Assembly: GCF_001654455.1 (NCBI RefSeq)
Contig: NZ_CP015772.1
Location: forward strand, 1,612,001-1,676,000
Direction: 5' to 3'
DNA length: 64,000 bases
DNA from: Niabella ginsenosidivorans
Lineage (GTDB): Bacteria; Bacteroidota; Bacteroidia; Chitinophagales; Chitinophagaceae
This document shows, piece by piece, positions 22,629 through 47,927 of this stretch. Under the pieces are notes generated by a model. That model ran no database searches and was not told where the DNA came from. It was given only the letters and a program-made list of their open reading frames with translations. Each line of letters starts with the position of its first letter. Positions within the stretch are counted from its first letter, which is position 1. The translations under genes were made by a program, and so were the position numbers.

Positions 22629-22989
22629 TTAAAAGTTTTTTCAAACATACATGAATTTTTTTGTCGGAAAATCTTCCTTACTATAATTCACAGATACAGG
22701 GGCCTCATTGTTCTGCAGGGCATTAAAACTGCACCTGAGCTGTTAGAACGGTACGCAGGGCCGGTATTAAACCTTCCAGGTTTGGGGTGCGGTGTTTATT
22801 GAGACAGATTGATGAAAAACTGAGACAAAATAGTGGCTGTTGCGTTTTTATGAATTCTATTTTTACATGGATTTCCTGCTGTAACAACCCGATATGCTTG
22901 TAAATAATCGATTGCTGTAATTTATTCAAGGTTAAGAAAGCATTATTGCCAGACAAATGTTATCAAAAAACATTAAATAATATATTCGT
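22629..22989. other. Divergent regulatory region between sensor kinase and first susC
   Basis: 361 bp separating the kinase gene from the first susC. It contains the paired TGAGACA half-sites at 22800-22827. A TATATTCG sequence at 22981-22988, one base before the susC ATG, resembles TAnnTTTG, but its position would leave no leader, so it may be chance. Nothing coding was seen. Confidence 0.6.
22800..22827 (+). promoter_or_regulatory. TGAGACA direct-repeat operator, site 1
   Basis: Two TGAGACA half-sites start exactly 21 bp apart (22800 and 22821), with ATTGATGA conserved between them. The same arrangement occurs upstream of the second susC (29275) and the GH2 gene (47927, minus strand). Two-turn spacing of direct repeats suits an AraC-type regulator bound as a dimer. 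It lies 162 bp before the first susC. Confidence 0.7.
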
Positions 22990-25900
22990 ATGAAAAAGAA
23001 ACTGCGTATAGGAAAGGAAGAGATATTGCTCCTCCTTGTTTTTCTATTGGGAGGAGGCCGGGTCTTTGCACAAACAACAATTGTTTCAGGTAAAATTACT
23101 GATGAAAAGGGTTCCTCCTTAATTGGTGTAACGGTTGCGATCAAGAATACCACTACGGCTACGGTATCTAATACTGAAGGCGGATATAGTATAAAAGCCG
23201 GTGCTGCAGATGTGCTGGTATTTTCCTATGTTGGTTATCATGAGCAGGAAGTGCCGGTTAACGGGCAATCAAAGATCAGCATTACCATGAAACGCCAGGA
23301 GTCGGATCTGGGAGAAGTCGTAGCTATCGGTTATCAGACCGTTCTGAAAAAAGACCTTACAGGAGCTACAGGGGTAGTAAAAATGGAAGACGCCCGGAAA
23401 ATATCCGGAGGTTCCGTTGCAGAAGCCCTGCAGGGCCTTGTTCCCGGTGTAACCGTGAGGAACGGAGGAGCGCCTGGTCAGAATGCAACAATAGAAATAA
23501 GGGGTGCGGCCAATTTTCAATATCTCAGTCCTTTATATGTAATAGACGGAATGATCGCTGATGCCAATGTAACCATTAACCCGGATGATGTGGCCAGTGT
23601 TCAGGTATTAAAGGATGCATCCGCCGCTGCTATATATGGTGCCAGGGCCGGAAGCGGTGTAATCATCATTACAACAAAAAAGGGCAGGGCTGGTGATCCT
23701 GTCATCAGTGTCAGCGCAAAAGTGGGCATGCAGCAGTTGCCCAAGGTCTGGGATGTTATGGACGCTCCCTCTTTTCTGAAAACGGCGCAGCAGCAGTATA
23801 CCAACTCCGGTGTGGCACTGCCGGCTGATATCTCTGCCCAGTTAGCGAATAACACCATTAATGTTGACTGGCAAAAAGCCGTTTACCGGACAAGTCCTTA
23901 TCAGGACTATAATGTAGGCGTATCAGGAGGCTCTGCTACAGGTAGTTACTATTTGTCAGGGGGCTATTACAGTAACCAGGGAACGGTTGTTGCGAATTCA
24001 TTCGACCGTGCCAGTATGCGTATAAATACGGAGATGAGAAAAGGGAGATTAACAGTTGGAGAAAATATGATGTTAAGTTCCTCCCGCTCTCAAAACCCCG
24101 GCGGTGGTGTGAACGTTTTCTATAACTCCGCTCAGATGCTGCCAATCATAATGGTGCAGAGCGATGATTATAAAGACCCGAATTTATATCCTTCTAATCC
24201 CGGAGGCTGGGGTTGGGGTCATCCAATAATCCTACATATGCCAATAACTACCTTGCAAATGCTGCTTTGGATAAGGTCAATAATACTTATGCCAAAATTG
24301 TGGGTAATATGTTTGCCTCATTAAAATTAACGGATTGGTTAAGTTATAAATTCAATTTTGGCCTGGAAGCCAGTTTCGATTATTCAAAAGAAGTGAGAGA
24401 TACAGGCGTCTGGCGCTATACCAACCAGCCTCCGCAGACTTTTGTATCTGAAGGTCGCTCCAGATTCACCAATATGTTGATGGAGCATACACTGAATTTC
24501 AACAAATCTTTTGGCAGGCACAGCATCAACGGGGTACTGGGTTTTTCAAGAGTAGAACAGCAAAGGGACTATACCAATGCCAGCAAAAACGTGTTACAGA
24601 ATCTGAATGGCATCCTCTTTACCACAATTGGTTCCGCCCTGGGAAGTCCCGGTGCAGACGGCGGACTGAGCTCAAAATGGAGGAACCATGGCTGGATAGG
24701 ACGGGTGAATTATAGCTATGCAGATAAATATCTGCTGACGCTGACAGGGCGTGCGGATCAGGATTCCCGGTTTAGCCGCTATCTCAGAACCGGATATTTT
24801 CCTTCTGTAGCGGGCGCATGGCGCTTAAGCAAAGAAGATTTTTTCAAAAGTGAGCTGATCAACGACCTGAAAATAAGAGCGTCCTACGGAGAGCTTGGTT
24901 TTAGCGATGAATTAGGATCATGGCCGTTTACGGCTTTCATTAACAGTGCTTCCAGGGCCATTTATGGCACTTCGCAAATCCCTCATATCGGTCAGTACCA
25001 GGCATCCATCATCAATCCTTACCTGAGATGGGAAGTGAGGACGCAAACAGATGTCGGGGCGGATGCCAGCCTCTTGAACAATGCATTCTCCGTTTCTTTA
25101 GACTGGTACCGTTCTTTGTCGAAAAAAGTTTTGCTGGTAGTACCGTTGCCGCAATACCTGGGCAGCAGCACAAGCCCGTATGTGAACACCGGTTCTATAA
25201 AGAATACAGGCATTGAATTTACCGCTACATACAGAAATCACCAGCATGCGTTTAAATGGGACCTGTCCGGCAATTTTACGACCATCAGGAATGAAGTAAT
25301 GTCGGTTGGTGAACGGGGCGAGGATGCCAGTGGCAATAAGGTAGATTATCTGGAGCCGGCTAATTATACGCGTACGCAGGTGGGGCATCCTATGGGCTCA
25401 TGGTTTGTGATCCAGACTGCGGGCCTTTTCCAGAGCCAGGAAGAAATTAATAATTATAAGAACAGTGCGGGAAGGATCATTCAGCCGAATGCCAAACCTG
25501 GTGACGTAAAATATGTGGATCTGAATGATGATGGCCAGATCAATGACCAGGACAGAACATACAGGGGTTCTCCCTGGCCTACATTACAATCAGGTCTGCA
25601 ATTCAATGGCAGTTACAAAGGGTTTAATATAAACCTTCAGTTTATCGGGATTTTTGGTAATAAAATATATGATGATGTGCGCAGGGCGTTAGACGGTTAT
25701 CAGCTTACCAATTACAGAAATGGGATTGATCCCTGGTCCCCAACCAATACGGGCGGAACAGACCCAAGGCTTGCTGTTGATAATGGCAGCGATCCGTCTG
25801 TATCAGCTAACAATATGGCCCAGACAGACAGATGGCTGGAAAACGGCTCTTATGTAAGATTAAGGAACCTCGAAATCGGTTATACATTTGATGCTTCAGC

Positions 25901-26084
25901 CCTGAAAAGGGCAGGTTTTAAAAGCACCAGGATATTCATCAGCGGCCAGAACCTCTTTACCATTACCAAATATAAAGGTCTGGATCCTGATGTAGCCAAT
26001 AATAATGCATTAATGAGAGGTATGGATTCAGGTTTCTGGCCATCAAGCAGGATTTATTCTGCAGGTATCAACTTTGAATTTTAA
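22990..26084 (+). pseudogene. SusC/RagA-type TonB-dependent outer-membrane transporter, split by a frameshift
   Basis: Two overlapping frames (22990-24324 and 24213-26084) together encode one SusC protein of about 1030 residues. The first gives the signal peptide, carboxypeptidase-like domain (VSGKITDEKGSSLIGVTVAI), TonB box region (LGEVVAIGYQTVLKK), plug domain (MEDARKISGGSVAEALQGLV, ASAAAIYGARAGSGVIIITT) and early barrel up to NPGGWGWG. The second resumes at SSNNPTYANNYLANAALDKV and completes the barrel through SSRIYSAGINFEF. The frames meet in the G/T-rich run at about 24206-24219, where one extra G would restore continuity. It is a true mutation, a phase-variable state or a sequencing error. 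Functionally it would form the outer-membrane importer with the adjacent SusD. Confidence 0.88.
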
Positions 26085-26109: not shown

Positions 26110-27657
26110 ATGAAAAAATCATTCTTTCTATTCGTCATAGCTGTTCTGATCTTATCCTCCTGTAAAAACGATCTGGATATACCCAATCCAAATAATCCAA
26201 CAATTGATAATTTCTGGAAAACCGCAACAGATGCACAAAATGGTGTCAATGCCATTTACAGCACCTATCACAGGGTAGGTTTAGCCAGGAACCAGTTCTT
26301 TCTTACTATTGTACGGTCAGATGAAGGGTTCAGCACCAGTCCCAATTCCATTCTTATTAATAACTTTGATGTTTTCAACGTAACCGACTATAACCTGTGG
26401 GAAACCACCACCGTGTGGCAGGACTTGTATATTGGAATAGCCCGGGCCAACCAGGTGCTGGACAATGTACCTGATATTGACATGGATGCAACCCTTAAAG
26501 GCCAGTTGCTGGGTGAGGCAAAATTTATGAGGGGCTTCTTTTATTATTACCTGGCTACGTTGTGGGGAAATGTGCCGGTATTGGTAAAAACCCCGCTTCC
26601 CACGGATTATCCTTCAACCACACATCAGGCAGATGTGTATGCACAGGCTGAGCAGGACTTTACCGATGCAGCAGCCGCACTGCCTGAAAAATACGATGAT
26701 GCAAATGTTGGCAGGGCTACAAAGGGAGCTGCTTATGGTATGCTGGGCAAGTGTTATTTGCAGCAGCATATGTATAGCGAGGCACAACAGGCTTTACAAT
26801 GGCTGGTTGAAGGTGACGGAAAAAATATATACGATCTTGTAACCAGCTACAGGGATAACTTTTTAGAGGGCACTGAAAATAATAAAGAATCGGTTTTTGA
26901 ATTTCAGAATGCTGTAAATCCCAAAGATAATCATGATGATGATGCAAGCGGTAATCCAGACAATTTAAACTATGGTTCTTCTATTCCCCCGTTTTTTGCG
27001 CCCCGCCCGATCGGCTTTACAGATGGCCAGGCCAGAAGGCAATGTGTTTGGGAATTTTTAACTGAAAAAACAACCAGCGGAGGAAGAGATCCACGTGTAG
27101 ATGCCAGCTTTATTTATGATTCAACAGATGTAAGGGGCCCTGAATATTCAATGGTATACGGACAATCCTTTGCTTCAAGAAACTATGCAAATGTACCGGG
27201 AGACCCTGTGGCTGTTGCAACAACACATACTGTTTATTTCAGGAAATTCCTGAATGATGCCACAAGCGTTGGCGAAGTGTTTCATTCCGGCAACAACTAC
27301 CGTTATTTACGTTATGCGGATATACTTTTGTTATACGCGGAAGCACTGAATGGAATGGATCAGACAGCAAAGGCATACTCGTATGTAAACCGCGTAAGGG
27401 CAAGGGCCGGTTTGGCGCCGCTTCCTCCGGGAATGAGCAAGGCGCAATTTTTAGAACGGTTAAAACATGAGCGGCTGACAGAACTTTGCGGAGAAGGGCA
27501 CCGTTGGGAAGACCTGGTAAGATGGGGCGACCTGGGCACGAAGCTGGTTTCAAGAGATCCGAGCTTTGCCTATTACCAGGATAAATATGCCTTATTGCCT
27601 GTACCCCAATATGAGCGTGACGTAAACCCTAAATTAGAGCAGAATCCGGGCTGGTAA
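26110..27657 (+). CDS. SusD/RagB-type surface glycan-binding lipoprotein
   Basis: 515 residues. A lipoprotein signal ends at the lipobox LILSSC, so Cys18 or nearby is lipidated and the protein sits on the cell surface as the lid of the SusC pore. Tetratricopeptide-like helices typical of the family include EAKFMRGFFYYYLATLWGNV and GAAYGMLGKCYLQQHMYSEA. The C-terminal SusD segment reads LRYADILLLYAEALNGM, YVNRVRARAGL and LTELCGEGHRWEDLVRWGDL. It starts 25 bp after the frameshifted susC and is intact, so the pair's function depends on whether that frameshift is real. Confidence 0.95.
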   Translation: MKKSFFLFVIAVLILSSCKNDLDIPNPNNPTIDNFWKTATDAQNGVNAIYSTYHRVGLARNQFFLTIVRSDEGFSTSPNSILINNFDVFNVTDYNLWETTTVWQDLYIGIARANQVLDNVPDIDMDATLKGQLLGEAKFMRGFFYYYLATLWGNVPVLVKTPLPTDYPSTTHQADVYAQAEQDFTDAAAALPEKYDDANVGRATKGAAYGMLGKCYLQQHMYSEAQQALQWLVEGDGKNIYDLVTSYRDNFLEGTENNKESVFEFQNAVNPKDNHDDDASGNPDNLNYGSSIPPFFAPRPIGFTDGQARRQCVWEFLTEKTTSGGRDPRVDASFIYDSTDVRGPEYSMVYGQSFASRNYANVPGDPVAVATTHTVYFRKFLNDATSVGEVFHSGNNYRYLRYADILLLYAEALNGMDQTAKAYSYVNRVRARAGLAPLPPGMSKAQFLERLKHERLTELCGEGHRWEDLVRWGDLGTKLVSRDPSFAYYQDKYALLPVPQYERDVNPKLEQNPGW

Positions 27658-27672: not shown

Positions 27673-28746
27673 ATGAGAAGAAAATGTATAGCTGCAATTA
27701 TTACACTGGCATTCACTATCGGATGTGGCAAATCCGGTGGAGATGCCGGTAACGGAGGTGATGGTGGCGGCACCCAGCCGGTTGTTAAGAAATTTACCAA
27801 CCCCATATTATCTTCAGGGCCCGATCCCTGGGTTACCCGGAAAGGGGACTACTATTACTATACGCAAACAACCGGCAATGGTATAAAATTATGGAAAACG
27901 CAATATGTAGATGATTTGCGGAACGCGGTTGCTGCAACAGTCTGGACACCTGCTGCGGGAACGGCATACGCTGCGGATGTGTGGGCCCCGGAACTGCATT
28001 ATCTTGATAATAAATGGTACCTGTATGTTACAGCCGCCACTGCGGGCAATAATGCTTCCCACCGCATATATGTATTAGAAAACAGCTCGGCAGACCCGTT
28101 AAATACCGGCTGGGTTTTTAAAGGTAAGGTAGCCGACCCTTCTGACAAATTTGCTATAGATGCTACAGTGTTTACCTATAAGAACAACAATTATATGGTG
28201 TGGAGCGGATGGCAGGGAGATGTGGATGGAGAGCAGGATTTGTTTATAGCAAAACTGTCCAACCCCTACACCATTGAGGGGAGCCGGGTGCTGATCTCAA
28301 AACCGACCTATGATTGGGAAAAGATATCTACAGGTGTTAATGTGCTGGTTAATGAAGGACCAGAGGTGGTACAAAACGCCAACGGGAATGTTTTTCTCAC
28401 CTATTCGGCTAATGGTTGCTGGAGCGATGATTATTGCCTGGGGATGCTTTCTTTAAAAGCAGATGGAGATCCGTTAAACCCTGCAGACTGGACAAAATCT
28501 CCCGTTCCTGTATTTACAAAAAATACAAGCGGTGGTGCTTTTGGCCCGGGCCATAACGGGTTTTTTAAATCGCCGGATGGAAAGGAGGACTGGATCATTT
28601 ATCATGCAAATTCCCTGGCCGGCCAGGGTTGTGGCGATACGCGCAACCCGCGCATCCAAAAATTTACCTGGAAGCAGGATGGAACTCCTGATTTTGGGAT
28701 GCCAGTGAAGATTAACGAGCCGGTTCAGAAACCATCCGGGGAATAA
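27673..28746 (+). CDS. GH43 family lipoprotein, probable alpha-L-arabinofuranosidase
   Basis: 357 residues with a lipobox at FTIGC (Cys18) followed by a Gly-rich linker, so anchored in a membrane, probably facing outward. The five-bladed GH43 propeller has the three expected acids: base Asp51 (SGPDPWV), pKa modulator Asp163 (KFAIDATVF) and acid Glu228 (VNEGPEV). DVWAPELHYLDNKWYLYVTA is the family's second-blade signature. GH43 members cleave arabinofuranose or xylose linkages; arabinose is favoured by the GH127 neighbour. It is a close paralogue of the protein at 42744-43802 (shared KVADPSDK, GHNGFFKSPDGKEDW and GQGCG stretches). Third gene of the first susC operon, 15 bp after susD. Confidence 0.9.
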   Translation: MRRKCIAAIITLAFTIGCGKSGGDAGNGGDGGGTQPVVKKFTNPILSSGPDPWVTRKGDYYYYTQTTGNGIKLWKTQYVDDLRNAVAATVWTPAAGTAYAADVWAPELHYLDNKWYLYVTAATAGNNASHRIYVLENSSADPLNTGWVFKGKVADPSDKFAIDATVFTYKNNNYMVWSGWQGDVDGEQDLFIAKLSNPYTIEGSRVLISKPTYDWEKISTGVNVLVNEGPEVVQNANGNVFLTYSANGCWSDDYCLGMLSLKADGDPLNPADWTKSPVPVFTKNTSGGAFGPGHNGFFKSPDGKEDWIIYHANSLAGQGCGDTRNPRIQKFTWKQDGTPDFGMPVKINEPVQKPSGE

Positions 28747-29100: not shown

Positions 29101-29274
29101 GACATTACACCAGGGCGCAGTTGTTGTTCTTCTTTATGATCCCGTTTTATTTTTTAGAACTTTCATATAAAATTGTCTCCTGAAGTGTTTAAGCAGGTCT
29201 TGATATCAATTGGTATGAAACAGCTGTTCAGGCCAATGAGCTTACGGCAATTTTTTAGAAGCTCCGTTGCATAT

Positions 29275-29302
29275 TGAGACAAATTGATGAAAAATTGAGA
29301 CG
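29275..29302 (+). promoter_or_regulatory. TGAGACA direct-repeat operator, site 2
   Basis: TGAGACA at 29275 and TGAGACG at 29296 start 21 bp apart, with AATTGATGAAAAAT between them, nearly identical to site 1. It sits upstream of the second susC operon. Confidence 0.7.
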
Positions 29303-29498
29303 AATTGCACTGCTAAATCGTTTTTCCAGGTATATTTTAGCGAATGAACGAGCTGCCATCATTACGATTGTTTGACAGGTAATGCCCTGAACAGTTCTCG
29401 AACCGGTTTGGTACTTAATGTAAAAGCCCCGGGTGTATGCTGGTCTTAATAGATAACAGACGGCCCGTAGATATAAATGTTTAAACCAATTTGCCATT

Positions 29499-32400
29499 AT
29501 GATTATACGAACAATTCTTTTAGTCGTTTTTAGCTTCATGATACGGGGAGCCGTATTTGCCGCAGGTTATCCTGTATCTGCCGGCAAGGCCGTTAGCAAC
29601 GGAAGAGCTGTGCCCATTACGGGTAAGGTGGTGGATCTGAGCGGGAACCCTATGGCCGGTGCTTCTGTAAGTATTAAAGGTACGCCCATTGGTACGCTAA
29701 CAGGAACTGATGGAAGCTTTACGCTGAATACACCAAAGGACAGCGGTACGCTTGTTGTCTCTTATGCCGGCTATAAGACCCAGGAGGTGAAGTTTTCCGG
29801 GCAATCGACCCTGACCATTTCTATGGAACCGGAAGAGCACTCGGAAAATGAAGTAGTGGTGATCGGATACGGTACCAAAAAAAGACAGGATATTACATCA
29901 GCTATATCCACAGTCACTTCTAAAGACATTGACAAGGTACACGGTGGTTCTACCGTAAGCACAGCGCTGGCCGGGAAGATTCCCGGTGTCAGTTTCCGGC
30001 AGGCAGACGGAAGGCCCGGCTCCTCCGCAAATGTACAGATCCGGAATTTCGGTACTGCATTATATGTTATTGACGGCGTGCAGCAGGATGTAGGCTCTTT
30101 CAATAACCTGGCACCGGGAGATATTGAAAGCATCTCCGTTTTAAAGGATGCATCGGCTTCTATCTACGGGTTAAGAGCTGCAAACGGGGTAGTGGTGGTT
30201 ACCACAAAAAAAGGAAAGCTGGGTGAAAAGCCCACCATCAGCTTTAATGGGTTCTACGGCATCCAGAGCTGGACGCGCTTCCCTGAAGTGCTGACCAGCT
30301 CTTATGATTACATGCGTTACAAGGCGGAGGCTGAAGTGAATGCAACGGGAAGCACGTCCATTACGCAGGAGGAGCTGGATAAATATAAAGCAGGTACTGA
30401 GTATGGATATAAAAGCTTTGACTGGCGCGACTTTATCATAAAAAACAACTCCCCGCTCACTTCGGCCAGCCTGAGTGCCGAAGGCGGCAGCGAACGTATC
30501 ACTTACTATATTGCGGCAACACACCTGTACCAGAACTCTCCATTAGGAAGGGAATATAAATTCTCCAGGTCCAATATACAATCCAATATCAGCGCCAAGA
30601 TCGCAAACGGGCTTAAAGCCGGTATGACCATCAACGGACGTGATGAAATGACCCAGAACCCCGGTGTTCCCTATGTTGATGATTACTTTGTAGCAAGGAA
30701 GGCGCTGATGCGCAATACACCCCTGGAACGGCCTTATGCAAATGATAACCCCCAGTATATAAATGATATCAAGCATAATGAAACCAACTGGGCGTTCCTG
30801 AACTACAAAAATTCGGGCCTCTTCAAAAGGGACTGGCGCGTATTGCAGGCAAACCTGACGCTGGACTATCAGCCTGCGTTTGTCAAAGGGCTAACGCTGA
30901 GCGGTCTTTATTCGTATTATATAGCGGACGAGGTGCTCAATAACCAGGAGTATACCTATGATACCTATACGTACGATCCGCAGCAGGACACCTATACCCG
31001 TACAGGCGGCAGTACCAACCCCTGGCGCGAGCGGGAACAGGTAAAACAGATCAATATTACCACCAACATTAAATTGAATTATTCAAGGAGTTTTGGATTG
31101 CATACCATAGATGCCACATTGGTGAATGAAAGGATACAGAATAATTATACCCGGAACTGGCTACACGCGCTGCCCCCGTTCAATTCATTGTCACTAATCT
31201 ATATTGCCCAGACAGACGATTACCAGGATGCAGTGAAAAACCAGCCCCGTATTGGTTATATCGGAAGGCTGGCTTATGGATATGCAGATAAATACAATAT
31301 TGAACTTTCAGGGAGACGCGATGCCTCTTACTTATTTCCCCCGGATCACCGGGTGGGGTATTTCCCGTCTGTATCCGGTGCCTGGCGGATCACCAACGAA
31401 AAATTCATTCAAAACCTGTTGGGCGAAAAAACGGTTTTGAGCGAGCTGAAACTAAGGGCCTCTTACGGGGTGATGGGAGATGATGGCGGTAATGATAATC
31501 CGATTGTGGAGCCCTTTGCTTATTTAACGGGATACCGGTATAATGCCATTGGCTCTGTGCAGGGCGGGGTCTATATCCCCGGCCTGGTAGATAAAGGGAT
31601 CCCGGTTACGAATATCAGCTGGACAAAGAGTAAAATCCTGGATATCGGGATCGACTATAACTTTCTGAAGGGGAAATTCACAGGAGCAGTAGATTATTTT
31701 GACCGGAGAAGGACCGGTATCCTGGATTCAAGAAGGGATGTGGTGGTGCCGGCAGAGCTGGGCTATAACCTGCCGCAGGAAAACCTGAACAGTGACCAGC
31801 AACGCGGGGTGGACGGATCCATTTTTTATAACGGAAAAATTGGAAGGGATTTTACACTTACCGTAGGCGCCAATGGTATGTACTCCAGGGCTAAGATGCT
31901 GGATATTTATAAACCCAATGTTCAAAACGCGTTGGACGCATACAGAAATCTTGGAATTGACAGGTATAAAAGCATTACCTGGGGTTATGAAGCTATAGGG
32001 CAATTCCAGTCACAGGATGAGATCAATAATTATCCCGTGGATATTGATGGCAGGGGAAACAAAACCATGTTGCCAGGCGATATCATTTATAAAGACTTTA
32101 ACGGCGATGGTAAGATTGATGGTAATGACCTGCGGCCGATCGGTTATGGCAACGGAGGCGGCGTACAGCCTATTGTAAATTATGGTCTTTCCATTAACCT
32201 GTCTTATAAACAACTCGACTTTACGGCCGATTTTTCAGGTGCAGCCGGCTATACGTGGATACAAAGTAATGAGTCATTGATCCCGTTCTTTGAAGAGGGA
32301 AACCTGAATACCATCTTTTTAGACCGATGGCACCATCAGGATCCACTGGATCCCAATTCTCCCTGGGTACCAGGCAAATATCCGGCATTGCGGTTTAATC

Positions 32401-37645: not shown

Positions 37646-37793
37646 TAAATGATAATGCTGAAAATAAAAGACCTGTTTATAACTCCTTCGAATCCAGCCT
37701 ATGCGGAATGTTAAAGGCTACGATGATCTGCGTTCCGGAATCGCGGGAAAATAAATACTGGTTTATTCACAGAATACTGAATTGATTATTATA

Positions 37794-40259
37794 ATGAAAT
37801 TGAATCGCTCTTACTTATTCCTGATGTTAGGCTTCCTGATGAGCTTTAAAATTCAGGCACAAACACAAAAAGCCCCGGCCTATCCGTTAATTACACATGA
37901 TCCTTATTTTAGTATCTGGTCGTTCAGTGACCAGCTCAATGAGTCGGCAACCAAACACTGGACAGGCGCCGATCAGCCATTGCTGGGATATATAAAAGTG
38001 GATGGTAAGATTTACCGTTTCCTGGGTAAAGAAGTGCCTGTTTACAAAACCCTGCTAGCTACATCAGAAGAGCAGCCATACAAAGTAAGATATACGGAAA
38101 AAGACCCTGGCCAGGGCTGGAACAGTGAGCAATTCCGGGAAACGAACTGGAAAACCGGCGAAGCCCCCTTTGGGGATCAGGCATCCGCAATAAAAACGCC
38201 CTGGCAATCAGAAGACCTTTGGGTAAGAAGAACTTTTGAACTGGAAGAGCTGCCGGGTGCGCCTGTTTATCTGAAGATAAAACATGATGATAATATTGAA
38301 GTATACCTGAATGGCGCTGTTGTGTACAGCTGTAACTGCTGGGTGGATAAATATAGTTACATTCCCATCAAAGATGCAGCCTCCTTATTAAGGAAAGGAA
38401 AGAATACAATAGCTGTGCATATAAAAAACACAAAAGGAGGGCAGTTCCTGGATTTTGGATTAGCAGCTGAGTCCCGTTTTGATCGTTCAGACACTATTGA
38501 TAAAGCTGTCCAGAAAAATGTGCAGGTAAAAGCAACGCAAACCCTTTATGATTTTGAGTGTGGCCCCGTAGCGCTAAAAGTTGCTTTTATTTCCCCGTTG
38601 ATCATGAATGACCTGGAATTATTATCCAGGCCCGTTTCCTATATTACGTTTGCAACCAGCAGTAAAGACAACCTGGCGCATACCGTTGAAGTATTATTGA
38701 GCGTTTCTTCAGATCTTGCAGTAAATACACCGACACAGGAAATAACGGCTGAGAAATCAACCTCCGGCAATTTAAGCCTGTTAAAGGCAGGAACCGTGAG
38801 CCAGCCTGTATTGCAAAAAAAAGGGGACGACCTGCGTATAGACTGGGGGTATTTATATATTGCGGCTCCCACCGGCAAAAATACCTGGCAATATATTGCT
38901 GAGCCGGGCAGCGCTTCGCTGAAGGTATTCAAGAGCGCTGACAAATTTTCACCCATGCTGAAACAGCAGGGCAAACAACTGCTGTTGAATACTATTCTTG
39001 ATCTTGGAAGAGCGCAAAGCGCTTCAGGAAAGTTAATGATTGCATATGACGATCTTTATTCGATTCAATACTTTGGAGAAAATTTACGCCCCTGGTGGAA
39101 CCGGAAAGGAAAAAGTTCTATTGAGGAGCAGCTGGAGAAGGCGGAAAAAGAATACAATACCGTAGTAAAACAATGCGCTTCCGTTGACAACAGGGTTTAT
39201 CAGGATGCATGGAAAGCAGGTGGCACGGAATATGCCCGGCTGTGCGAAATGGCATACCGTCAAAGTATTGCGGCGCACAAACTGGTGCAAAGCCCCTCAG
39301 GTGACCTGTTGTTCCTTTCAAAGGAAAATTTCAGCAACGGGTCGATCAATACAGTGGATGTAACTTATCCTTCGGCTCCGTTATTTCTTGTATATAATCC
39401 GGACCTGCTAAAAGGAATGCTGAATGGGATCTTTTACTATAGCGAATCAGGGAAATGGGCAAAACCATTTCCGTCGCACGACCTGGGCACTTACCCGCAG
39501 GCCAACGGGCAAACCTATGGAGAAGACATGCCGGTGGAGGAAGCAGGGAACATGCTTTGCTTAACCGCAGCTATAGCAAAAGCAGAAGGCAATGCACAAT
39601 ATGCGCAAAAACACTGGGAAACCCTTACCACCTGGGCCGATTATCTGGTTAAAGAAGGCTTTGATCCGGCTAATCAGCTGTGTACAGATGATTTTGCAGG
39701 TCACCTGGCACGCAATACCAATCTTTCAATGAAAGCCATTATGGGCATTGAAGGCTACGCAGCGATTGCAAGGATGTTGGGTAAAAATGATGTGTATAAT
39801 AAATATCACGGAACAGCTACAGCTATGGTGCCAAAATGGTTGCAGCTGGCAGATGACGGAGATCATTATACACTGGTATTTGAAAAGAAAGGCACCTGGA
39901 GCCAGAAATACAACCTGGTTTGGGATAAAGTGCTCCGGTTTAATATATTCCCCCGATCGGTCTACCAGAAAGAAATTAGCTTTTATTTTAAAAAGCAGAA
40001 TAAATACGGTCTTCCGCTGGACAGCCGGAAAAGCTATACAAAATCCGACTGGATCCTGTGGACCGCAACCCTGGCGAATAATAGCAATGATTTTAAAGCG
40101 CTGGTAACGCCTGTTTATAAGTATGCCACAGAAACGCCGGCCCGCGTGCCGCTAAGCGACTGGCATGAAACAACCGATGGGCGCCAGGTGGGATTTCAGG
40201 CACGCAGCGTTGTTGGCGGATATTTTATGAAAGTGCTGGATAAAAAACTGAATCAATAA
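37794..40259 (+). CDS. Exported DUF4965/DUF5127 glutaminase-like protein
   Basis: 821 residues from ATG at 37794, with a signal peptide ending KIQAQTQ. The order follows the fungal GtaA-like family: a DUF4964 start (PAYPLITHDPYFSIWSFSDQ, HWTGADQPLLGYIKVDGK), an inserted jelly-roll (WVRRTFELEELPGAPVYLKI to KGGQFLDFGLA), DUF5127, then DUF4965 and an all-helical DUF1793-like barrel (MLCLTAAIAKAEGN, HLARNTNLSMKAIMGIEGYA). These proteins were named for glutaminase activity in fungi, but in Bacteroidota they are regular members of polysaccharide loci and may be glycosidases of unknown specificity. It follows the GH127 gene by about 150 bp. Confidence 0.85.
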   Translation: MKLNRSYLFLMLGFLMSFKIQAQTQKAPAYPLITHDPYFSIWSFSDQLNESATKHWTGADQPLLGYIKVDGKIYRFLGKEVPVYKTLLATSEEQPYKVRYTEKDPGQGWNSEQFRETNWKTGEAPFGDQASAIKTPWQSEDLWVRRTFELEELPGAPVYLKIKHDDNIEVYLNGAVVYSCNCWVDKYSYIPIKDAASLLRKGKNTIAVHIKNTKGGQFLDFGLAAESRFDRSDTIDKAVQKNVQVKATQTLYDFECGPVALKVAFISPLIMNDLELLSRPVSYITFATSSKDNLAHTVEVLLSVSSDLAVNTPTQEITAEKSTSGNLSLLKAGTVSQPVLQKKGDDLRIDWGYLYIAAPTGKNTWQYIAEPGSASLKVFKSADKFSPMLKQQGKQLLLNTILDLGRAQSASGKLMIAYDDLYSIQYFGENLRPWWNRKGKSSIEEQLEKAEKEYNTVVKQCASVDNRVYQDAWKAGGTEYARLCEMAYRQSIAAHKLVQSPSGDLLFLSKENFSNGSINTVDVTYPSAPLFLVYNPDLLKGMLNGIFYYSESGKWAKPFPSHDLGTYPQANGQTYGEDMPVEEAGNMLCLTAAIAKAEGNAQYAQKHWETLTTWADYLVKEGFDPANQLCTDDFAGHLARNTNLSMKAIMGIEGYAAIARMLGKNDVYNKYHGTATAMVPKWLQLADDGDHYTLVFEKKGTWSQKYNLVWDKVLRFNIFPRSVYQKEISFYFKKQNKYGLPLDSRKSYTKSDWILWTATLANNSNDFKALVTPVYKYATETPARVPLSDWHETTDGRQVGFQARSVVGGYFMKVLDKKLNQ

Positions 40260-40329
40260 AAGCGTTCAGAAAGCTGCCGTTGCCGGTACAACCGGTATAA
40301 CTGCAGAATATTTTGACTCACCAAAAAGT

Positions 40330-41514
40330 ATGAATATGAAGAAAGTGATTTTTTTTGAGCGACTGATGACCGGGTTGCTGGCTTTAGTTACCGCAGGGGT
40401 AATGATCATCTCCTGTGCAACCCCTGAAAGTAAAAAACCGGACGGGAAGGATTCCCTGGCAGGCCGCAGGGAAATCTGGACGCAGGAGCAGGCAAATAAC
40501 TGGTATGCCGGTCAGCCCTGGTATGTGGGCGCCGACTTTCTGCCCAGCACTGCCATCAACCAGTTAGAGATGTGGCAGGCGGAGACATTTGATACCGCTA
40601 CTATTGATAAAGAACTGGCCCTCGCCGAATCGATCGGCATGAATGTGATGCGTGTTTACCTGCATGACCTTGTGTTTGAAAATGATGAGCAGGGTTTTTA
40701 TGACCGCATCAATCAATTCCTGCAAATAGCAGACAAGCACCATATAAAAATATTGTTTACGATCTTTGATTCCTGCTGGGATCCTTTTCCAAAGGCAGGA
40801 AAGCAGCGGGCTCCCAGGCCGTTTGTGCATAATTCCGGCTGGGTGCAAAGCCCGGGACAGGCCGCCTTGAAGGACTCTGCCCAATACCCGCGCCTTGAAC
40901 AATATGTAAAGTCCATTGTTGGAAAATTTGCAAATGACCAGCGCATTATAGCCTGGGATGTATGGAATGAACCGGACAACATGACCGGCCCATCCTATGA
41001 AAAGGTAGAAATACCGGATAAGGTAGCGCTGGTGCTTCCTTTGCTGAAAAAGACATTTGAATGGGCCAGGTCTGCAAACCCGTCCCAGCCGCTTACATCT
41101 GGGGTTTGGGCGGGTAACTGGCAATCAGACAGCACTTTAAAGCCTGTTGAAAAACTGCAGCTTCAGGAATCCGATATTGTTTCCTTCCATTGTTATGATG
41201 ATTCCGCAACATTGCATAAAAAAATTGATGAATTAAAGCGGTATAACCGGCCGCTGTGGTGCACTGAATATATGGCACGTCCCAATAAAAGCACGTTCCA
41301 GAGCTCCCTGCCTGTTGCAAAGGCAAACAAGGTAGCCATGATCAACTGGGGCTTTGTGGACGGGAAATCGCAAACCAAGTACCCCTGGGACAGCTGGACA
41401 AAGACCTATACTTCAGAGCCCCCGCTCTGGTTTCATGATATTTTCCATAAGGATGGAACACCTTATAAACAGGATGAGGTGGATTTTATTAAGTCAATGA
41501 CGGGGAAAAAATAA
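40330..41514 (+). CDS. GH-A clan glycoside hydrolase lipoprotein (GH5-like)
   Basis: 394 residues with a lipobox MIISC (Cys29). The (beta/alpha)8 fold is indicated by GMNVMRVYLHDLVFEN, ILFTIFDSCWDPFP, and the acid/base Glu214 in IIAWDVWNEPDN on strand 4, with a probable nucleophile Glu313 in LWCTEYMARP. This arrangement is that of GH-A clan enzymes. Similar proteins are often labelled 1,4-beta-xylanase or cellulase family, but no precise activity can be assigned. A second ATG two codons later (40336) is an equally possible start. It could attack a backbone or an arabinose side chain in this locus. Confidence 0.8.
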   Translation: MNMKKVIFFERLMTGLLALVTAGVMIISCATPESKKPDGKDSLAGRREIWTQEQANNWYAGQPWYVGADFLPSTAINQLEMWQAETFDTATIDKELALAESIGMNVMRVYLHDLVFENDEQGFYDRINQFLQIADKHHIKILFTIFDSCWDPFPKAGKQRAPRPFVHNSGWVQSPGQAALKDSAQYPRLEQYVKSIVGKFANDQRIIAWDVWNEPDNMTGPSYEKVEIPDKVALVLPLLKKTFEWARSANPSQPLTSGVWAGNWQSDSTLKPVEKLQLQESDIVSFHCYDDSATLHKKIDELKRYNRPLWCTEYMARPNKSTFQSSLPVAKANKVAMINWGFVDGKSQTKYPWDSWTKTYTSEPPLWFHDIFHKDGTPYKQDEVDFIKSMTGKK

Positions 41515-41787
41515 AAAAGGTTAGGGTCTGTTTTTAATGTTCATTAGCCGGCACATTAGAACAGGGTGCAGCCTTCGTTATGAAGCTGTCGGAAAAGAAT
41601 GCCTGCCTGGAACTTCCGTTTGTTGTTAACATGACAGTAATGAAAACCAAGAACCGTGGGTCCGGAGGCATAAGAACACTGTTCGCCATGATGCGTGTCC
41701 GCACGCATCCTCCGGAGCCTACAGATCAGGACATTCAGGACAGTTACTGTTGTATGCCCTGTTTAGGGAACAAAAATAAATGAGGTT

Positions 41788-42747
41788 ATGAATAGCCGGA
41801 TCTTAAAAAGTATAGTTTATTTATTATTGATAATGCCTTTTACTGTAAAAGGTCAGGGCCCTGCTGGGCAGAACCCGTTACTGGCGGACCCAACGATCTT
41901 TTATTATAAAGGAATTTATTATTTGTACGGCACAAACGGACACAATGCCAATGAAGGGTTTACCGCTTATACTTCTGCTGATCAGCGTAACTGGTTTTAC
42001 AGGGGAATTGTGCTTAAAAAAGGAACCAGTTTTGGAACCCGGGGTTTCTGGGCACCGCAGGTAGTACATTATAAGGGCCGGTTTTATATGGCCTATACAG
42101 CGGACGAACATATTGCCATTGCTGTAGCGGATAGCCCGTTGGGGCCATTTCAGCAGCAGGAAATAAAGGCCCTGGATACTTCTGTAAAAATGATTGACCC
42201 CTTTTTGCTCTTTGAAAAAGATAAAGTGTATTTATATCATGTACGCCTTCAGAATGGGAACCGGATTTTCGTTGGGGAAATGAATAAAGACCTGAGCGCT
42301 ATAAAAACGGCTACAGTAAAGGAATGCATTCATGCTGATGCCGGCTGGGAAAATACCGCAAATGCTAAGTGGGGAGTAACAGAAGGCCCCACAGTAGTAA
42401 AACGCGGACGTTATTATTACCTGATCTATTCTGCCAACGATTTCCGCAACCCCGATTATGCCGTAGGCTTTGCAACAGGCACATCGCCTTACGGTCCCTG
42501 GGAAAAATATTCCGGTAATCCTGTTTTATCTCAACAGACCACCGGAAACAATGGAACAGGGCATGGTGATCTGTTTAAAGACGCGCAGGGCAACTGGCAC
42601 TATGTTTTTCATACGCATTATGCTGCTGCAACGGTTGCACCGCGCAGAACGGCCCTGATCAGGGTGACTTTTGAAAAAACTGCTAACGGAGAGGAGGTGA
42701 TCACTGCGGATCCCCGTACTTTCCATTTCTTAAATGTTGTTCAATGA
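41788..42747 (+). CDS. GH43 family exported glycosidase
   Basis: 319 residues with a signal peptide (about 1-22, ending VKGQG). The GH43 acids are present: Asp34 (LADPTIFYYKG), Asp137 (MIDPFLLFEKD) and Glu199 (VTEGPTVVKRG). It is shorter than, and clearly distinct from, the other two GH43 proteins here and consists of the propeller only. Family activities are alpha-L-arabinofuranosidase, endo-arabinanase or beta-xylosidase; the context favours arabinose. Its stop overlaps the start of the next GH43 gene by four bases (ATGA). The preceding 270 bp carry no convincing gene. Confidence 0.9.
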   Translation: MNSRILKSIVYLLLIMPFTVKGQGPAGQNPLLADPTIFYYKGIYYLYGTNGHNANEGFTAYTSADQRNWFYRGIVLKKGTSFGTRGFWAPQVVHYKGRFYMAYTADEHIAIAVADSPLGPFQQQEIKALDTSVKMIDPFLLFEKDKVYLYHVRLQNGNRIFVGEMNKDLSAIKTATVKECIHADAGWENTANAKWGVTEGPTVVKRGRYYYLIYSANDFRNPDYAVGFATGTSPYGPWEKYSGNPVLSQQTTGNNGTGHGDLFKDAQGNWHYVFHTHYAAATVAPRRTALIRVTFEKTANGEEVITADPRTFHFLNVVQ

Positions 42748-43802
42748 ACCGTTTTATCTTATGGGCTGCTATAGTCCTCTCAATTAGTTTTCAGCTGAAT
42801 GCGCAACAGGTACAAAAAACCTTTACCAATCCGTTACTGGCTTCAGGAGCAGATCCGTATAGCTTTTACAAGGACGGGTATTACTACTATACCAACACTA
42901 TGGGAACCAAACTGGTGCTCTGGAAAACCCGGTCCCTGGCAGACCTGAAGCATGCAGAACAGAAAACTGTTTGGACCCCGCCGGCCAGCACAAATTATTC
43001 AAAAGAATTGTGGGCGCCGGAGATCTTATTTTTAAGAGGTAAATGGTATATGTATTTTGCAGCGGATGATGGTAATAATCAGAACCATCGTATGTATGTT
43101 ATTGAGAACAGTTCCCCGGACCCAATGAAAGGCGAATGGGTATTTAAAGGCAAAGTAGCTGATCCGTCTGACAAATGGGCCATTGACGGGGATGTGATCG
43201 AATATAAGGGACAGCTATACATGATCTGGTCGGGCTGGCACGGTGATGTAAACGGGCAACAGAATATTTACATTGCTAAAATGAGCAATCCCTGGACAAT
43301 AGAAGGAGAGCGGGTGCTGTTGTCTGAACCGGAATATGACTGGGAGCGGCATGGCTATTTAAAAGGAGAAACCCCGGAACAGGTTAATGTAAATGAAGGC
43401 CCGCAGTTCCTGGTACATAAAAACCATCTCTACATTGTTTACTCTGCCAGTGGTTGCTGGACGGATTTTTATACATTGGGCATGCTCTCCGCAAAAAATG
43501 ACAGGGATCTTTTAAACCGGTCTAACTGGGTAAAAAGTAAAGAACCGGTTTTTAAAGCGGCTCCGGAGAATGGTGTTTATGCGCCGGGCCATAACTCCTT
43601 TTTTAAGTCGCCGGATGGGAAAGAGGACTGGATCTTATATCATGCCAATTCAGCGCCTGGTCAGGGTTGCGGAGGGCACCGGTCGCCGCGGGCGCAACAG
43701 TTTACCTGGGACAAGGCCGGGCGTCCTTATTTTGGAAAACCATTGCCGGCTGGCCTCCCGTTAGCTGAACCAGCAATGAAAAAACAGGAGTACAGGCCAT
43801 AG
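42744..43802 (+). CDS. GH43 family exported glycosidase, paralogue of the operon-1 enzyme
   Basis: 352 residues with a signal peptide ending QLNAQQ. Catalytic acids are Asp37 (SGADPYSF), Asp148 (KWAIDGDVI) and Glu218 (VNEGPQF). It matches the lipoprotein at 27673-28746 almost throughout (shared ELWAPE-type blade, GKVADPSDK, SGCWTDFYTLGML versus NGCWSDDYCLGML, GHNSFFKSPDGKEDW, GQGCGGHRSP). It lacks the lipobox, so it is probably periplasmic while the paralogue is surface-anchored. The duplicate pair may act on the same linkage on two sides of the outer membrane. Translationally coupled to the preceding GH43 gene. Confidence 0.9.
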   Translation: MNRFILWAAIVLSISFQLNAQQVQKTFTNPLLASGADPYSFYKDGYYYYTNTMGTKLVLWKTRSLADLKHAEQKTVWTPPASTNYSKELWAPEILFLRGKWYMYFAADDGNNQNHRMYVIENSSPDPMKGEWVFKGKVADPSDKWAIDGDVIEYKGQLYMIWSGWHGDVNGQQNIYIAKMSNPWTIEGERVLLSEPEYDWERHGYLKGETPEQVNVNEGPQFLVHKNHLYIVYSASGCWTDFYTLGMLSAKNDRDLLNRSNWVKSKEPVFKAAPENGVYAPGHNSFFKSPDGKEDWILYHANSAPGQGCGGHRSPRAQQFTWDKAGRPYFGKPLPAGLPLAEPAMKKQEYRP

Positions 43803-43957
43803 AAATTCCTGGCAGCAGTTGCAGGCGGCTTATAGAAAATGGTTTTGTAAAGAGCTGATTTTATTGTATTATTGACATTTATAACGCTTGCCCGGGAACT
43901 ATGGCAACAGCAAAAACGAGCGGCCATCTTTAATAAAAAACATAAAAAAATAGAACA

Positions 43958-45148
43958 ATGAGTCATTCATTAAAATTTTTTGCGGTAGCTGCGCTGGCGC
44001 TTGGCATAGCGGCCTGCAATGATAATAGTGCAGAAAAAAAAGAAAGCGCTGCAACAGACAGCACGGCTGTAAAGACCGATGACACGCCGGAGTCTCTGGA
44101 CAGTGCGAAATTTGTGGCTATGATTGATGGTAAAAAAACGGCATTGTATCAACTAACCAACCATAAAGGCATGACAGTTGCCATTACCAATTATGGAGGG
44201 CGTATTGCAGGCATCTGGGTGCCGGATAAAGAGGGAAAACAAACGGACGTGGCCTGGGGAATGAGCAGTGTTGATGCATTTGAAAAATCAGATATGGCGT
44301 ATTTGGGTGCATTAATCGGCCGTTATGGAAACCGTATTGGCCATGCTCAATTTCAGCTGGACGGCAAAACATATCCGCTGGCGGCAAACGATGGCCCTAA
44401 TACACTGCATGGCGGCAAAAAAGGATTCCAGGCCGTGGTATGGGATGCTGCACAGCCCAACGACAGTACCCTGGAACTGATGTATACGAGCCCCGACATG
44501 GAAGAAGGTTTTCCCGGAACATTGAACGTAAAAGTCGTATACAGTGTAACGGCTGATAATGCTTTAAAGATTGATTACAGTGCTACTACTGATAAGAATA
44601 CGATCGTGAACCTCACCAATCATGCTTATTTCAACCTGAATGGCGAGGGCAGTGGTGAAATACTGGGTCATACGGTACAGATCTATGCCGATAAATATAC
44701 CCCTGTTGATTCTACACTGATCCCTACCGGTAAGCTGGAACCCGTAGCAGGTACTCCTTTGGATTTTACAAAACCGGCTGCAATAGGTGCCCGTATCAAT
44801 GATGATAATGAACAATTGAAATTTGGTAAGGGATATGATCACAACTATGTATTGAACGGCACTAAAGGCCTGTATGGTCTTACACATGCAGCAACCTTTA
44901 CCGGCGATAAGTCTGGCATTTCAATGGACATTTATACACAGGAACCGGGATTGCAATTTTACAGCGGTAATTTTAATAAGAGCACCAACACTTTAAAATC
45001 CGGCGCAAAGGATATACACAGGGGTGCTTTTGCAGCGGAAACCCAGCATTTCCCCGATTCTCCCAACAAACCGGCCTTCCCCAGCACAGAGCTGAAGGCC
45101 GGCCAGCAGTATCATACGGTTACCTACTATAAGTTTTCATCTAAGTAA
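43958..45148 (+). CDS. galM: Aldose 1-epimerase (galactose mutarotase) lipoprotein
   Basis: 396 residues. The lipobox GIAAC (Cys20) is followed by a Ser/Thr/Lys-rich linker to about residue 45, so the enzyme is membrane-anchored, as often seen in polysaccharide loci. The mutarotase fold shows ITNYGGRIAGIWVPDKEGK, LGALIGRYGNRI, NTLHGGKKGFQ, the catalytic His in NLTNHAYFNLNGEG and catalytic Glu in AFAAETQHFPDSPN. It interconverts alpha and beta anomers of aldoses, so released arabinose or galactose enters metabolism faster. It is the last gene of the forward-strand run of this locus. Confidence 0.93.
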   Translation: MSHSLKFFAVAALALGIAACNDNSAEKKESAATDSTAVKTDDTPESLDSAKFVAMIDGKKTALYQLTNHKGMTVAITNYGGRIAGIWVPDKEGKQTDVAWGMSSVDAFEKSDMAYLGALIGRYGNRIGHAQFQLDGKTYPLAANDGPNTLHGGKKGFQAVVWDAAQPNDSTLELMYTSPDMEEGFPGTLNVKVVYSVTADNALKIDYSATTDKNTIVNLTNHAYFNLNGEGSGEILGHTVQIYADKYTPVDSTLIPTGKLEPVAGTPLDFTKPAAIGARINDDNEQLKFGKGYDHNYVLNGTKGLYGLTHAATFTGDKSGISMDIYTQEPGLQFYSGNFNKSTNTLKSGAKDIHRGAFAAETQHFPDSPNKPAFPSTELKAGQQYHTVTYYKFSSK

Positions 45149-46018: not shown

Positions 46019-47842
46019 TTATTGTTTATACAACTGCTGGTGGATCTCATGCAGAACTTTTGGATCAATCTTATATACCTTCCGGTCATAGGTCATTAAC
46101 CCGTTTGTTTCTACCTCCACATCCGTTGTTTGGGTATAAACGGCAGCGGATAAGCCAAGGGGGATGAGCCGGGCAAGGTGGCTCACCAGTTCTGAATAGC
46201 GGTTCTTTAGCTCATCCTGGTTTTTAAAGGTTTGATAGCCCCAGTTATTTTTAGCCTGCCAGGTATGACCTTCCAGGGGCAATCCCAGCCCGCCAAATTC
46301 TCCCAGTACCAGTATGCGTTCGCTGCCAAAGATGCGCGGATCAGGCATTGCAGGATCAGGATAATGATGCAGATCCATAATGTGCCCAACCGGAAAGAAG
46401 TTGCCGCCGCTTGCGCTGTTCACTAATCTGGAAGGATCGTATTGCATTGTCCACTCTGTAATTTCCTTTGTTTTAAACTGCCCCCAGGCTTCATTAAAAG
46501 GTACCCAAACCACAATGCAGGGAAAGTTGTACAGGTTGTCCATTATTTCTTTCCATTCCGTTCTGTAAACGGCTTCAGATTCAGCACTTCTGTCTTTATC
46601 CGTGTTGCCCCCGGAAATCTGTCCGGGACGGGAATCCCATACGTTACCTCCAAGATCGCCGCTGGGCATATCCTGCCATACCAGCATGCCCAGCTGGTCA
46701 CAATGATAATACCACCTTGCAGGTTCTGCTTTCACATGTTTGCGGATCATATTAAAGCCCATATCCTTTGTAGTCTGTATGTCAAAACGCAGCGCTTCAT
46801 CAGTAGGGGCTGTATACAACCCATCGGGCCACCAGCCCTGGTCCAGCGGGCCGTATTGAAAAACAAACCGGTTATTCAGCAACATTTTCTGAATGCCGTT
46901 TTCCTTTTGCATGGAAATCTTCCGCATGGCAAAATAAGAGGTCGCAGCATCGATTGGTTTCCCTTTCCGCAATAATTCTACTTTCAGGTTATACAGGAAC
47001 GGGCTGCCGGGCGTCCACAGCTTCATATTCTCAACAGGTAAAACGGCTTCGGTACCGGGCGCTACCTGTTGTTCGCTCATTTTAACAGATCCGTCCAAAG
47101 CGGTAACTCTTACCAGATCGCCAGGGCGCGCACTGTTTACGGTAGTGGTAACTTTTATTACTTTCTGATCAATATCGGGTGTGTTCTTTGTGGAGGCGAT
47201 GTAAGTATCCGGAACAGCTTCGATCCATACTGTTTGCCAGATACCGGTTACAGGAGTATACCAGATGCCATTGGGTTTTTTCACCTGCTTGCCTCTTGGC
47301 TGCGGGCCATCGTCTGACGGGTCCCATACGCGTACAGCAATTTCCTGTGTTTTCCCTTTCTTCAGGAAAGGGGTAATGTCAAAGGTGAATGCACTGTAAC
47401 CTCCTTTATGCTCGCCGGCTTTCCGGCCGTTTATAAAAACGCTGCATTGCCAGTCCACGGCTCCAAAATGTAACAGTACGGTTCCCTTTGACAGGCTGGC
47501 AGGTAACTGAATCGTTCTGTGATACCATAATGACCGGTCTTTGCCAACGGTTTTTTGTACGCCTGAAAGAGCCGATTCAACAGGGAAAGGCACCAGGATC
47601 TTTCCTTCAAACCCAACGGGTGCGGTTTCTGCTGAAGCCGGCTGAATACTGTAATCCCATTGCCCGTTTAAGCTCATCCAGTTACCGCGTACTAACTGGG
47701 GTCTTGGATATTCCGGCAGCACATTACCGGGTTGAACATCACTGGCCCATTTTGTCTGAATAATCGGCTTTACCGGATCGCCCTGGCCGGATACGCTTAA
47801 AAATAGGGATAGTAGAACTGGCAAACACACAAATCGTAGCAT
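46019..47842 (-). CDS. GH2 family exported glycosidase
   Basis: 607 residues with a signal peptide (MLRFVCLPVLLSLFLSVSGQ). The GH2 order is complete: sugar-binding jelly-roll (WMSLNGQWDYSIQPAS, WYHRTIQLPASLSKGTVLLH, VFINGRKAGEHKGGYSAFTF), immunoglobulin-like domain, and TIM barrel with acid/base Glu451 (VPFNEAWGQ) and nucleophile Glu515 (VLGEFGGLG). It is a short GH2 form lacking the extra C-terminal domains of LacZ. Activity could be beta-galactosidase, beta-glucuronidase or alpha-L-arabinopyranosidase type. It faces the rest of the locus, but a TGAGACA direct repeat lies 58 bp upstream of its start, so it is probably a co-regulated locus member. Confidence 0.92.
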   Translation of the reverse strand: MLRFVCLPVLLSLFLSVSGQGDPVKPIIQTKWASDVQPGNVLPEYPRPQLVRGNWMSLNGQWDYSIQPASAETAPVGFEGKILVPFPVESALSGVQKTVGKDRSLWYHRTIQLPASLSKGTVLLHFGAVDWQCSVFINGRKAGEHKGGYSAFTFDITPFLKKGKTQEIAVRVWDPSDDGPQPRGKQVKKPNGIWYTPVTGIWQTVWIEAVPDTYIASTKNTPDIDQKVIKVTTTVNSARPGDLVRVTALDGSVKMSEQQVAPGTEAVLPVENMKLWTPGSPFLYNLKVELLRKGKPIDAATSYFAMRKISMQKENGIQKMLLNNRFVFQYGPLDQGWWPDGLYTAPTDEALRFDIQTTKDMGFNMIRKHVKAEPARWYYHCDQLGMLVWQDMPSGDLGGNVWDSRPGQISGGNTDKDRSAESEAVYRTEWKEIMDNLYNFPCIVVWVPFNEAWGQFKTKEITEWTMQYDPSRLVNSASGGNFFPVGHIMDLHHYPDPAMPDPRIFGSERILVLGEFGGLGLPLEGHTWQAKNNWGYQTFKNQDELKNRYSELVSHLARLIPLGLSAAVYTQTTDVEVETNGLMTYDRKVYKIDPKVLHEIHQQLYKQ

Positions 47843-47899
47843 AAGAAACTATTTTTAGCCGTAAAAATAGCTAATCCACATCAGCTTTTGTTTTTCTGC

Positions 47900-47927
47900 T
47901 GTCTCAATTACTCTTCAATTTGTCTCA
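47900..47927 (-). promoter_or_regulatory. TGAGACA direct-repeat operator, site 3
   Basis: On the minus strand TGAGACA begins at 47927 and again at 47906, a 21-bp step, with AATTGAAGAGTAAT between. This is the third occurrence of the arrangement, here oriented toward the GH2 gene. Confidence 0.7.

Follow-up and report, generated by a model that had tools for sequence, protein, structure and literature searches.

A 21-bp direct repeat as the predicted operator of an unfused HTCS-type regulator in a Niabella glycan locus

A glycan locus of Niabella ginsenosidivorans carries the same direct repeat ahead of three of its genes, and we asked whether these elements are operators and, if so, which regulator would read them and how. 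The locus lies in a 64,000-nucleotide stretch of contig NZ_CP015772.1 (positions 1,612,001 to 1,676,000; the window), in which a first-pass annotation had reported TGAGACA-N14-TGAGAC(A/G) at 22800-22827 (+), 29275-29302 (+) and 47927-47900 (-). All three elements are present exactly as described, each lying between genes and directed at a start codon 85-224 bp away, those of susC1, susC2 and a GH2 gene. Allowing up to two mismatches still returned only these three elements in the window, compared with a mean of 0.21 and a maximum of 2 in 100 dinucleotide shuffles. Five of the six TGAGACA heptamers in the window (four on the + strand, two on the - strand) fall inside the elements. When the three commonest repeated 6-mers were taken for each lag from 10 to 59, TGAGAC/GTCTCA at lag 21 was the sole 6-mer of mixed composition with three copies; the others with three copies were A/T runs and one palindrome (ACCGGT at lag 28, with both strands counted). 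The annotation had proposed a genome scan and had named frequent copies away from promoters as the outcome that would speak against it. TGAGAC-N15-TGAGAC occurs three times in the 5,627,734-base (5.63-Mb) genome, every copy being intergenic, upstream of a gene and inside the window, and the same pattern read backwards has no copy in the whole genome. The longer pattern with up to three mismatches gave 13 matches (the 3 perfect ones and 10 with two or three mismatches) against 7 for its control, and the weaker matches were therefore treated as background.

The first element (operator 1) is followed on the + strand by susC1 (22990-26084), which consists of two overlapping open reading frames (22990-24324 and 24213-26084) with a frame shift in or near the overlap, and by susD1 (26110-27657) and a GH43 gene (27673-28746). 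Behind operator 2, also on the + strand, stand susC2 (29499-32681) and susD2 (32703-34622), with co-directional genes at 34484-45148 for a DUF3823 protein, GH127, a GtaA/DUF5127/DUF4964 protein, a GH5-like protein, two GH43 proteins and an aldose 1-epimerase; judged from their spacing, these would form one operon with operator 2. Operator 3 precedes the GH2 gene (46019-47842, - strand), which is convergent with the main operon. The elements are thereby placed upstream of susC and glycoside hydrolase genes beside a regulator gene. The putative arabinan assignment made in the first-pass annotation can rest only on the GH43 and GH127 content of the locus.

The regulator gene (18668-19465, - strand) encodes a 265-residue response regulator with a receiver and an AraC-type HTH_18 domain (Pfam Response_reg, 1.3e-26; HTH_18, 2.6e-19), the predicted operator binder. 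It had been annotated as a REC-AraC regulator, and these domains are indeed present, but the protein is a response regulator detached from the kinase with which it forms a pair, a 1047-residue sensor kinase (Reg_prop propeller, Y_Y_Y, HisKA and HATPase_c) encoded by a separate gene at 19485-22628 on the - strand. HTCSs have been described as carrying all domains in one polypeptide (PMC3243724, in its accessible text). Here the HTCS domain set (propeller/Y_Y_Y sensor, HisKA, HATPase, REC and HTH_18) is complete, but spread over two proteins, and the window's regulator falls outside that description. The kinase frame ends in TAA at 19485 and the regulator frame has its own in-frame TAG ahead of the start at 19465, so a single frame shift would not fuse the two. 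Judged from their sequences, the genes are best called an unfused HTCS-type pair. We found no description of unfused HTCSs in the open-access literature, nor in the accessible text of PMC3243724; XylRA, the regulator treated in the text seen of PMC12125979, is different from the window's.

Among 113 regulators that we scored, the window's included, 54 were unfused, 58 fused and 1 undecided. A kinase open reading frame of more than 700 residues ends close upstream of 43 of the 54 unfused regulators, with varying junctions, and none was found there in the other 11. A quick tree of the 113 regulators, with SH-aLRT support only and an arbitrary root, implies at least eight changes between the fused and unfused states, three of them forced by starred branches. 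The SHIP loop, which in the accessible text of PMC11253607 is connected with the inhibition of DNA binding in the unphosphorylated state, reads SHIP in the window's regulator. Its positions hold S or C in 51, H in 54, I in 46 and P in 53 of the 54 unfused regulators, and S or C in 54, H in 57, I in 54 and P in 56 of the 58 fused ones. The D of S/CHIP-DK falls in an insecurely aligned column (D in 40 of 54 unfused and 9 of 58 fused regulators, against 95% in the published account), and the SHIP loop alone was used. Unfused pairs that retain this loop of the receiver also bear on the idea, put forward in the part of PMC11253607 consulted, that the inhibition is a response to the problem posed by fusing kinase and regulator.

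The first-pass annotation had assigned the elements to this regulator and had suggested looking for them in orthologous loci. A weight matrix built from the window's three sites only was applied, at a cut-off score of 14.5, to 107 homologous loci in which the regulator has 3.7 kb or more of upstream sequence. In 33 of the 107 it found a site in the gap between the kinase and the divergent gene, pointing away from the kinase; a single gap site had the opposite orientation, and 25 sites lay elsewhere. Each of 20 column-permuted matrices gave 0-2 gap sites, and in 20 arbitrary 20-kb stretches (400 kb) the matrix matched 5 times. Gap sites follow identity to the window's regulator, being present in 19 of 21 loci at 60% or above, yet in 6 of 21 at 55-60%, and in 5 of 16 at 50-55%, 3 of 14 at 45-50% and 0 of 35 below 45%. 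This conservation with regulator orthologues strongly supports the assignment as a prediction, and the fall of site presence with regulator identity also fits plain relatedness. Of the loci whose regulator is at least 55% identical, 17 of 42 have no gap site at the cut-off score (2 of 21 at 60% or above, 15 of 21 at 55-60%), which points either to rapid drift of the motif or to too narrow a matrix. A spacing of 21 bp was the best in the relatives; among displaced spacings 19 bp came highest, with 14 gap matches. Because 13 of the 25 matches at spacing 19 share their start base with a 21-bp site, the matrix leans on half-site 1. Across 147 Chitinophagaceae genomes the three-box pattern with at most one mismatch had 9 matches: 3 in the window, 5 no more than about 6 kb from a homologous regulator (G004, G016, G022, G058 and G084) and 1 in a tandem array of G020. 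With up to two mismatches there were 29 matches against 35 for the backward control (summed from the table; 10 from G134), and matches this loose are uninformative.

An alignment of the three promoters on the repeat shows identity at TGAGACA-N-ATTGA-N-GA-NN-AA-N-TGAGAC; beyond this they do not resemble one another, save for a TATTTT block that keeps a constant distance. The annotation had singled out ATTGA(T/A)GA as a conserved spacer core. The core is present in all three elements, but it is the second recognition box of half-site 1 and not a spacer. The element consists of two half-sites, in each of which a TTGAGAC box and a TTGA box lie 10 bp apart, start to start. The three A half-sites begin at 22799, 29274 and 47928, TTGA begins 10 bp further on in all three, and half-site B follows 21 bp after A. 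Operator 1 (22799-22826, +), which is conserved in relatives, reads TTGAGAC (22799-22805), TTGA (22809-22812) and CTGAGAC (22820-22826). The corresponding boxes are TTGAGAC (29274-29280), TTGA (29284-29287) and TTGAGAC (29295-29301) in operator 2 (29274-29301, +) and ATGAGAC (47928-47922), TTGA (47918-47915) and TTGAGAC (47907-47901) in operator 3 (47901-47928, -). A fourth box would be expected 10 bp into half-site B; it is TTGC (29305-29308) in operator 2 and degenerate in operators 1 (ATAG) and 3 (AGAA). Boxes one helical turn apart, in half-sites two turns apart, would be what two head-to-tail AraC-type domains need.

Downstream of each operator a -7-like element stands at one and the same distance: TATTTTTA at susC1 (22858-22865, +), TATTTTAG at susC2 (29333-29340, +) and TATTTTTA again at GH2 (47862-47869, -). 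Its TA (22858, 29333 and 47869) falls 59 bp after the start of half-site A and 38 bp after that of half-site B. Both versions match only partially the TAnnTTTG given as the -7 consensus of Bacteroidota in the accessible parts of PMC7366714 and PMC9723704. Of the 36 rows of relatives, 28 have a TT(T/C)(A/G) that begins 63 bp from the element's first base, against a mean of 1.39 per offset (offsets from 35 on); all 36 rows were counted, including L036, which has a coding match instead of a gap site, and L009, L072 and L011, whose sites lie outside the gap. The element thus adjoins the predicted promoter at a fixed distance, as a class II operator does, and this constancy suggests that an activator binds immediately upstream of RNA polymerase. 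With the -7 consensus placed at -12 to -5, as in the text seen of PMC9723704, the operator would reach from about -71 to -37 and lie immediately ahead of the -33 region. The predicted transcription starts are close to 22869, 29344 and 47858, which would give leaders of about 121, 155 and 16 nt.

Membership of the oppositely oriented GH2 gene in the regulon, as the annotation had proposed, is supported by the relatives. GH2 homologues 41-69% identical occur in 21 other loci, and a clear upstream site (score of at least 13, with 21 the best of seven spacings) precedes the homologue in five of them, L021, L014, L024, G022a and L023. In G022a, from the same-genus genome G022, and in L014 the site stands apart from the kinase gap, as in the window; in L024 it lies between the regulator gene and GH2, and in L021 and L023 GH2 is the gene divergent from the kinase. 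No clear site was found upstream of the homologue in the other 16 loci, in several of which the upstream stretch looks coding. For 21 of the 33 gap sites the open reading frame that follows resembles the window's SusC; for the others it resembles GH2 (3), GH43 (2), the aldose epimerase (2), GH127 (1) or no locus protein (4).

Together, the genome-wide uniqueness of the elements, the conservation of gap sites with regulator identity, the fixed -7-like element, the HTCS-type REC and HTH_18 architecture and the HTCS literature make it very probable, in our judgement, that the three elements serve as operators for the two-component regulator encoded in the locus itself, which is predicted to bind and activate there. 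The propeller kinase would sense a glycan fragment and phosphorylate the separate REC-AraC response regulator, two monomers of which would bind head-to-tail, one on each half-site (TTGAGAC-N3-TTGA, boxes one helical turn apart); the half-sites, separated by 21 bp, would share one face of the helix. Beside the -33 region of a TAnnTTTG-type promoter, where the downstream half-site would end, the bound dimer could contact RNA polymerase; susC1-susD1-GH43, the genes from susC2 to the aldose epimerase and the convergent GH2 would then be switched on together.

The elements might instead serve another AraC-type regulator, for example that of a paralogous unfused pair at 4.90 Mb, which is 58% identical to the local one, or be common to both. 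In the divergent gap of this paralogue lies a similar repeat, ATGAGACA-N13-TTGAAACA, spaced at 21 bp (4896681, -), although its matrix score is only 12.0, and the A box that it has in common with the window elements makes cross-binding conceivable. Neither ATGAGACA nor TTGAAACA is joined by a TTGA second box, however, strict TGAGAC-N15-TGAGAC is absent from the paralogue locus, and the sites accompany homologues of the local regulator, within that regulator's own divergent gap, which leaves this reading quite improbable. A hint of specificity comes from the first HTH. Six relatives with (S/T)R(V/I)TLYRK there have the A boxes TGTAAC, TGAAAC or TGATAC (one half-site has TGAAAG) and never TGAGAC; among 25 rows with P or A at the V/I place, the window included, TGAGAC is found in at least one half in 17 and is absent in 8. 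All six V/I rows belong to a single clade (support 100) and so represent about one event.

Activation by the local regulator also has to be weighed against a repressor or dual site, at which the unphosphorylated regulator or another factor would block transcription, since repression has been reported or proposed for some HTCSs in the accessible parts of PMC11253607 and PMC3404733. Such a role is highly improbable: the fixed distance upstream of the -7-like element fits activation instead, and the regulator retains the SHIP loop that is tied to inhibition of DNA binding without phosphorylation (PMC11253607, text seen). Promoters 1 and 3 have extra bases in common around the -7-like element (CTATTTTTAC), as might follow from chance or from a recent duplication of a promoter segment that left functionless copies. 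We give this next to no probability; apart from the element and the -7 region the three promoters do not resemble one another, the element is kept in other genera while its flanks are not, and the conservation seen with the matrix speaks strongly against it.

Does the distance from repeat to promoter hold in other HTCS loci? We lean slightly towards one promoter layout for HTCS-type regulators across Bacteroidota, fused or unfused and with any half-site sequence, in which the half-sites would lie 21 bp apart and the second about 38 bp before the TA of TAnnTTTG. Self-similarity at each lag was measured free of any motif and anchored on TAnnTTTG in 77 loci of HTCS homologues without a scored gap site (232 regions upstream of open reading frames of at least 300 residues, from 66 loci). 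The five best lag/offset cells all had lag 21, at offsets 37-41 (97 anchors), and the lag-21 value of 0.332 exceeded all 500 random-anchor draws (mean 0.290, s.d. 0.012). Split by gene, it was 0.375 for locus-like genes (13 anchors, 10 of 500 draws as high) and 0.338 for unassigned ones (60 anchors, 1 of 500); susC promoters alone, with 9 anchors, are too few to stand alone. Kinase promoters gave no lag-21 signal (24 anchors, 0.292 vs 0.295), nor did 20 arbitrary 20-kb Chitinophagaceae stretches (44 anchors, 0.288 vs 0.288). The signal was stronger in L038-L085, mostly Bacteroidales by title (26 HTCS loci with 52 anchors, 0.375 vs 0.292), where the six best of 1540 lag/offset cells had lag 21 and offset 37-42. 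The loci without a scored gap site included a few that have motif-like sites elsewhere (for example, L024 and L014), and a retest that dropped regions matching the motif at 8 bits or more left the outcome unchanged, both overall (0.322 vs 0.287; 74 anchors, 3 of 300 draws as high) and in L038-L085 (0.367 vs 0.291; 40 anchors, 0 of 300 draws). In the genome's own other HTCS loci the lag-21 test was negative (0.217 vs a null of 0.267, 10 anchors), and a motif-free search for strong 21-bp repeats in other HTCS loci of this genome and its congeners returned A/T-rich or low-complexity repeats, or nothing. If the layout holds, operators could be read off an HTCS-linked promoter with no known motif, and the rigid repeat-to-promoter distance may help to find them.

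Operators of this kind are already known, at least as predictions. According to Ravcheev et al. 2013 (PMC3878776), 16 B. thetaiotaomicron HTCSs have predicted motifs, all direct repeats averaging 21 bp, dimers are proposed to sit on one helix face two turns apart, and motifs were unpredictable for 20 of the 36 HTCSs of that species at the time. The 21-bp direct-repeat operator of the first-pass annotation was therefore the correct design, but one already predicted for HTCS operators. As there, the window has pairs of directly repeated sites, at a period of about 21 bp, that stand ahead of susC-like and glycoside hydrolase genes close to the regulator; it differs in having an unfused pair, in another family and with another half-site sequence, where PMC3878776 treats fused HTCSs of Bacteroides, and in the fixed distance to a -7 element, of which we found no mention in the accessible text of that paper. 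A chimeric receptor with the regulatory domains of BT0366 binds at the BT0366 PUL in ChIP-seq (PMC3404733, in part), and gel shifts show HTCS response regulators binding susCD promoter DNA (PMC11253607, in part). In the text seen of these two papers, the HTCSs BT0366, BT4124 and BT4663 resemble the window's pair in their domains (Reg_prop/Y_Y_Y sensor, HisKA, HATPase, REC and HTH_18), PUL linkage and SHIP loop, and differ from it in that here kinase and regulator are two neighbouring genes. What would be new is the window's regulon, the unfused regulator and the fixed repeat-to-promoter geometry, the last also appearing statistically in HTCS loci without the motif; the locus would offer a complete, testable operator, promoter and regulon outside Bacteroides, with the oppositely oriented GH2 tied in. 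Class II activators of the AraC family, such as AraC at araI, use head-to-tail half-sites two turns apart, with two boxes each and the downstream half-site adjoining the promoter. The window's half-site and box layout is like that of AraC at araI, and differs in its control through a receiver domain and in its Bacteroidota TAnnTTTG-type promoter.

The GtaA/DUF5127/DUF4964 protein (37782-40259) lies inside the putative glycan operon, and at a homologous locus (L011) its 59%-identical homologue has an operator-like site of its own, which scored 14.7. In the window itself, susC1 (22990-26084) is split by a frame shift into two overlapping ORFs of 444 and 623 aa, which may reflect either a sequencing error or real inactivation.

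A repeat related to the operator was also found in the divergent gap of a paralogous unfused pair in the same genome (G000:C1, 4896719-4900666), where a 21-bp repeat, TGAGACA/TGAAACA, adjoins the pair at 4896681 on the minus strand and lacks the TTGA box. Four overlapping pattern matches spaced 21 bp apart in another genome of the family (G020:C96:4477-4567) form a short tandem array, which is a mimic of the operator pattern; no regulator match for this genome was among the matches listed in the homologue search of family genomes.

Scoring of 113 HTCS-type (hybrid two-component system) regulators revealed two forms, 58 fused versus 54 unfused, with the window's own pair (18668-22628) among those scored. 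On a quick tree of these regulators the fused or unfused state changed at least 8 times, with 3 changes forced. No description of the unfused form was found in the open-access literature searched for unfused HTCSs. The unfused regulators, including that of the window (18668-19465), retain the SHIP receiver loop, which a published account ties to silencing of a kinase-fused regulator (PMC11253607).
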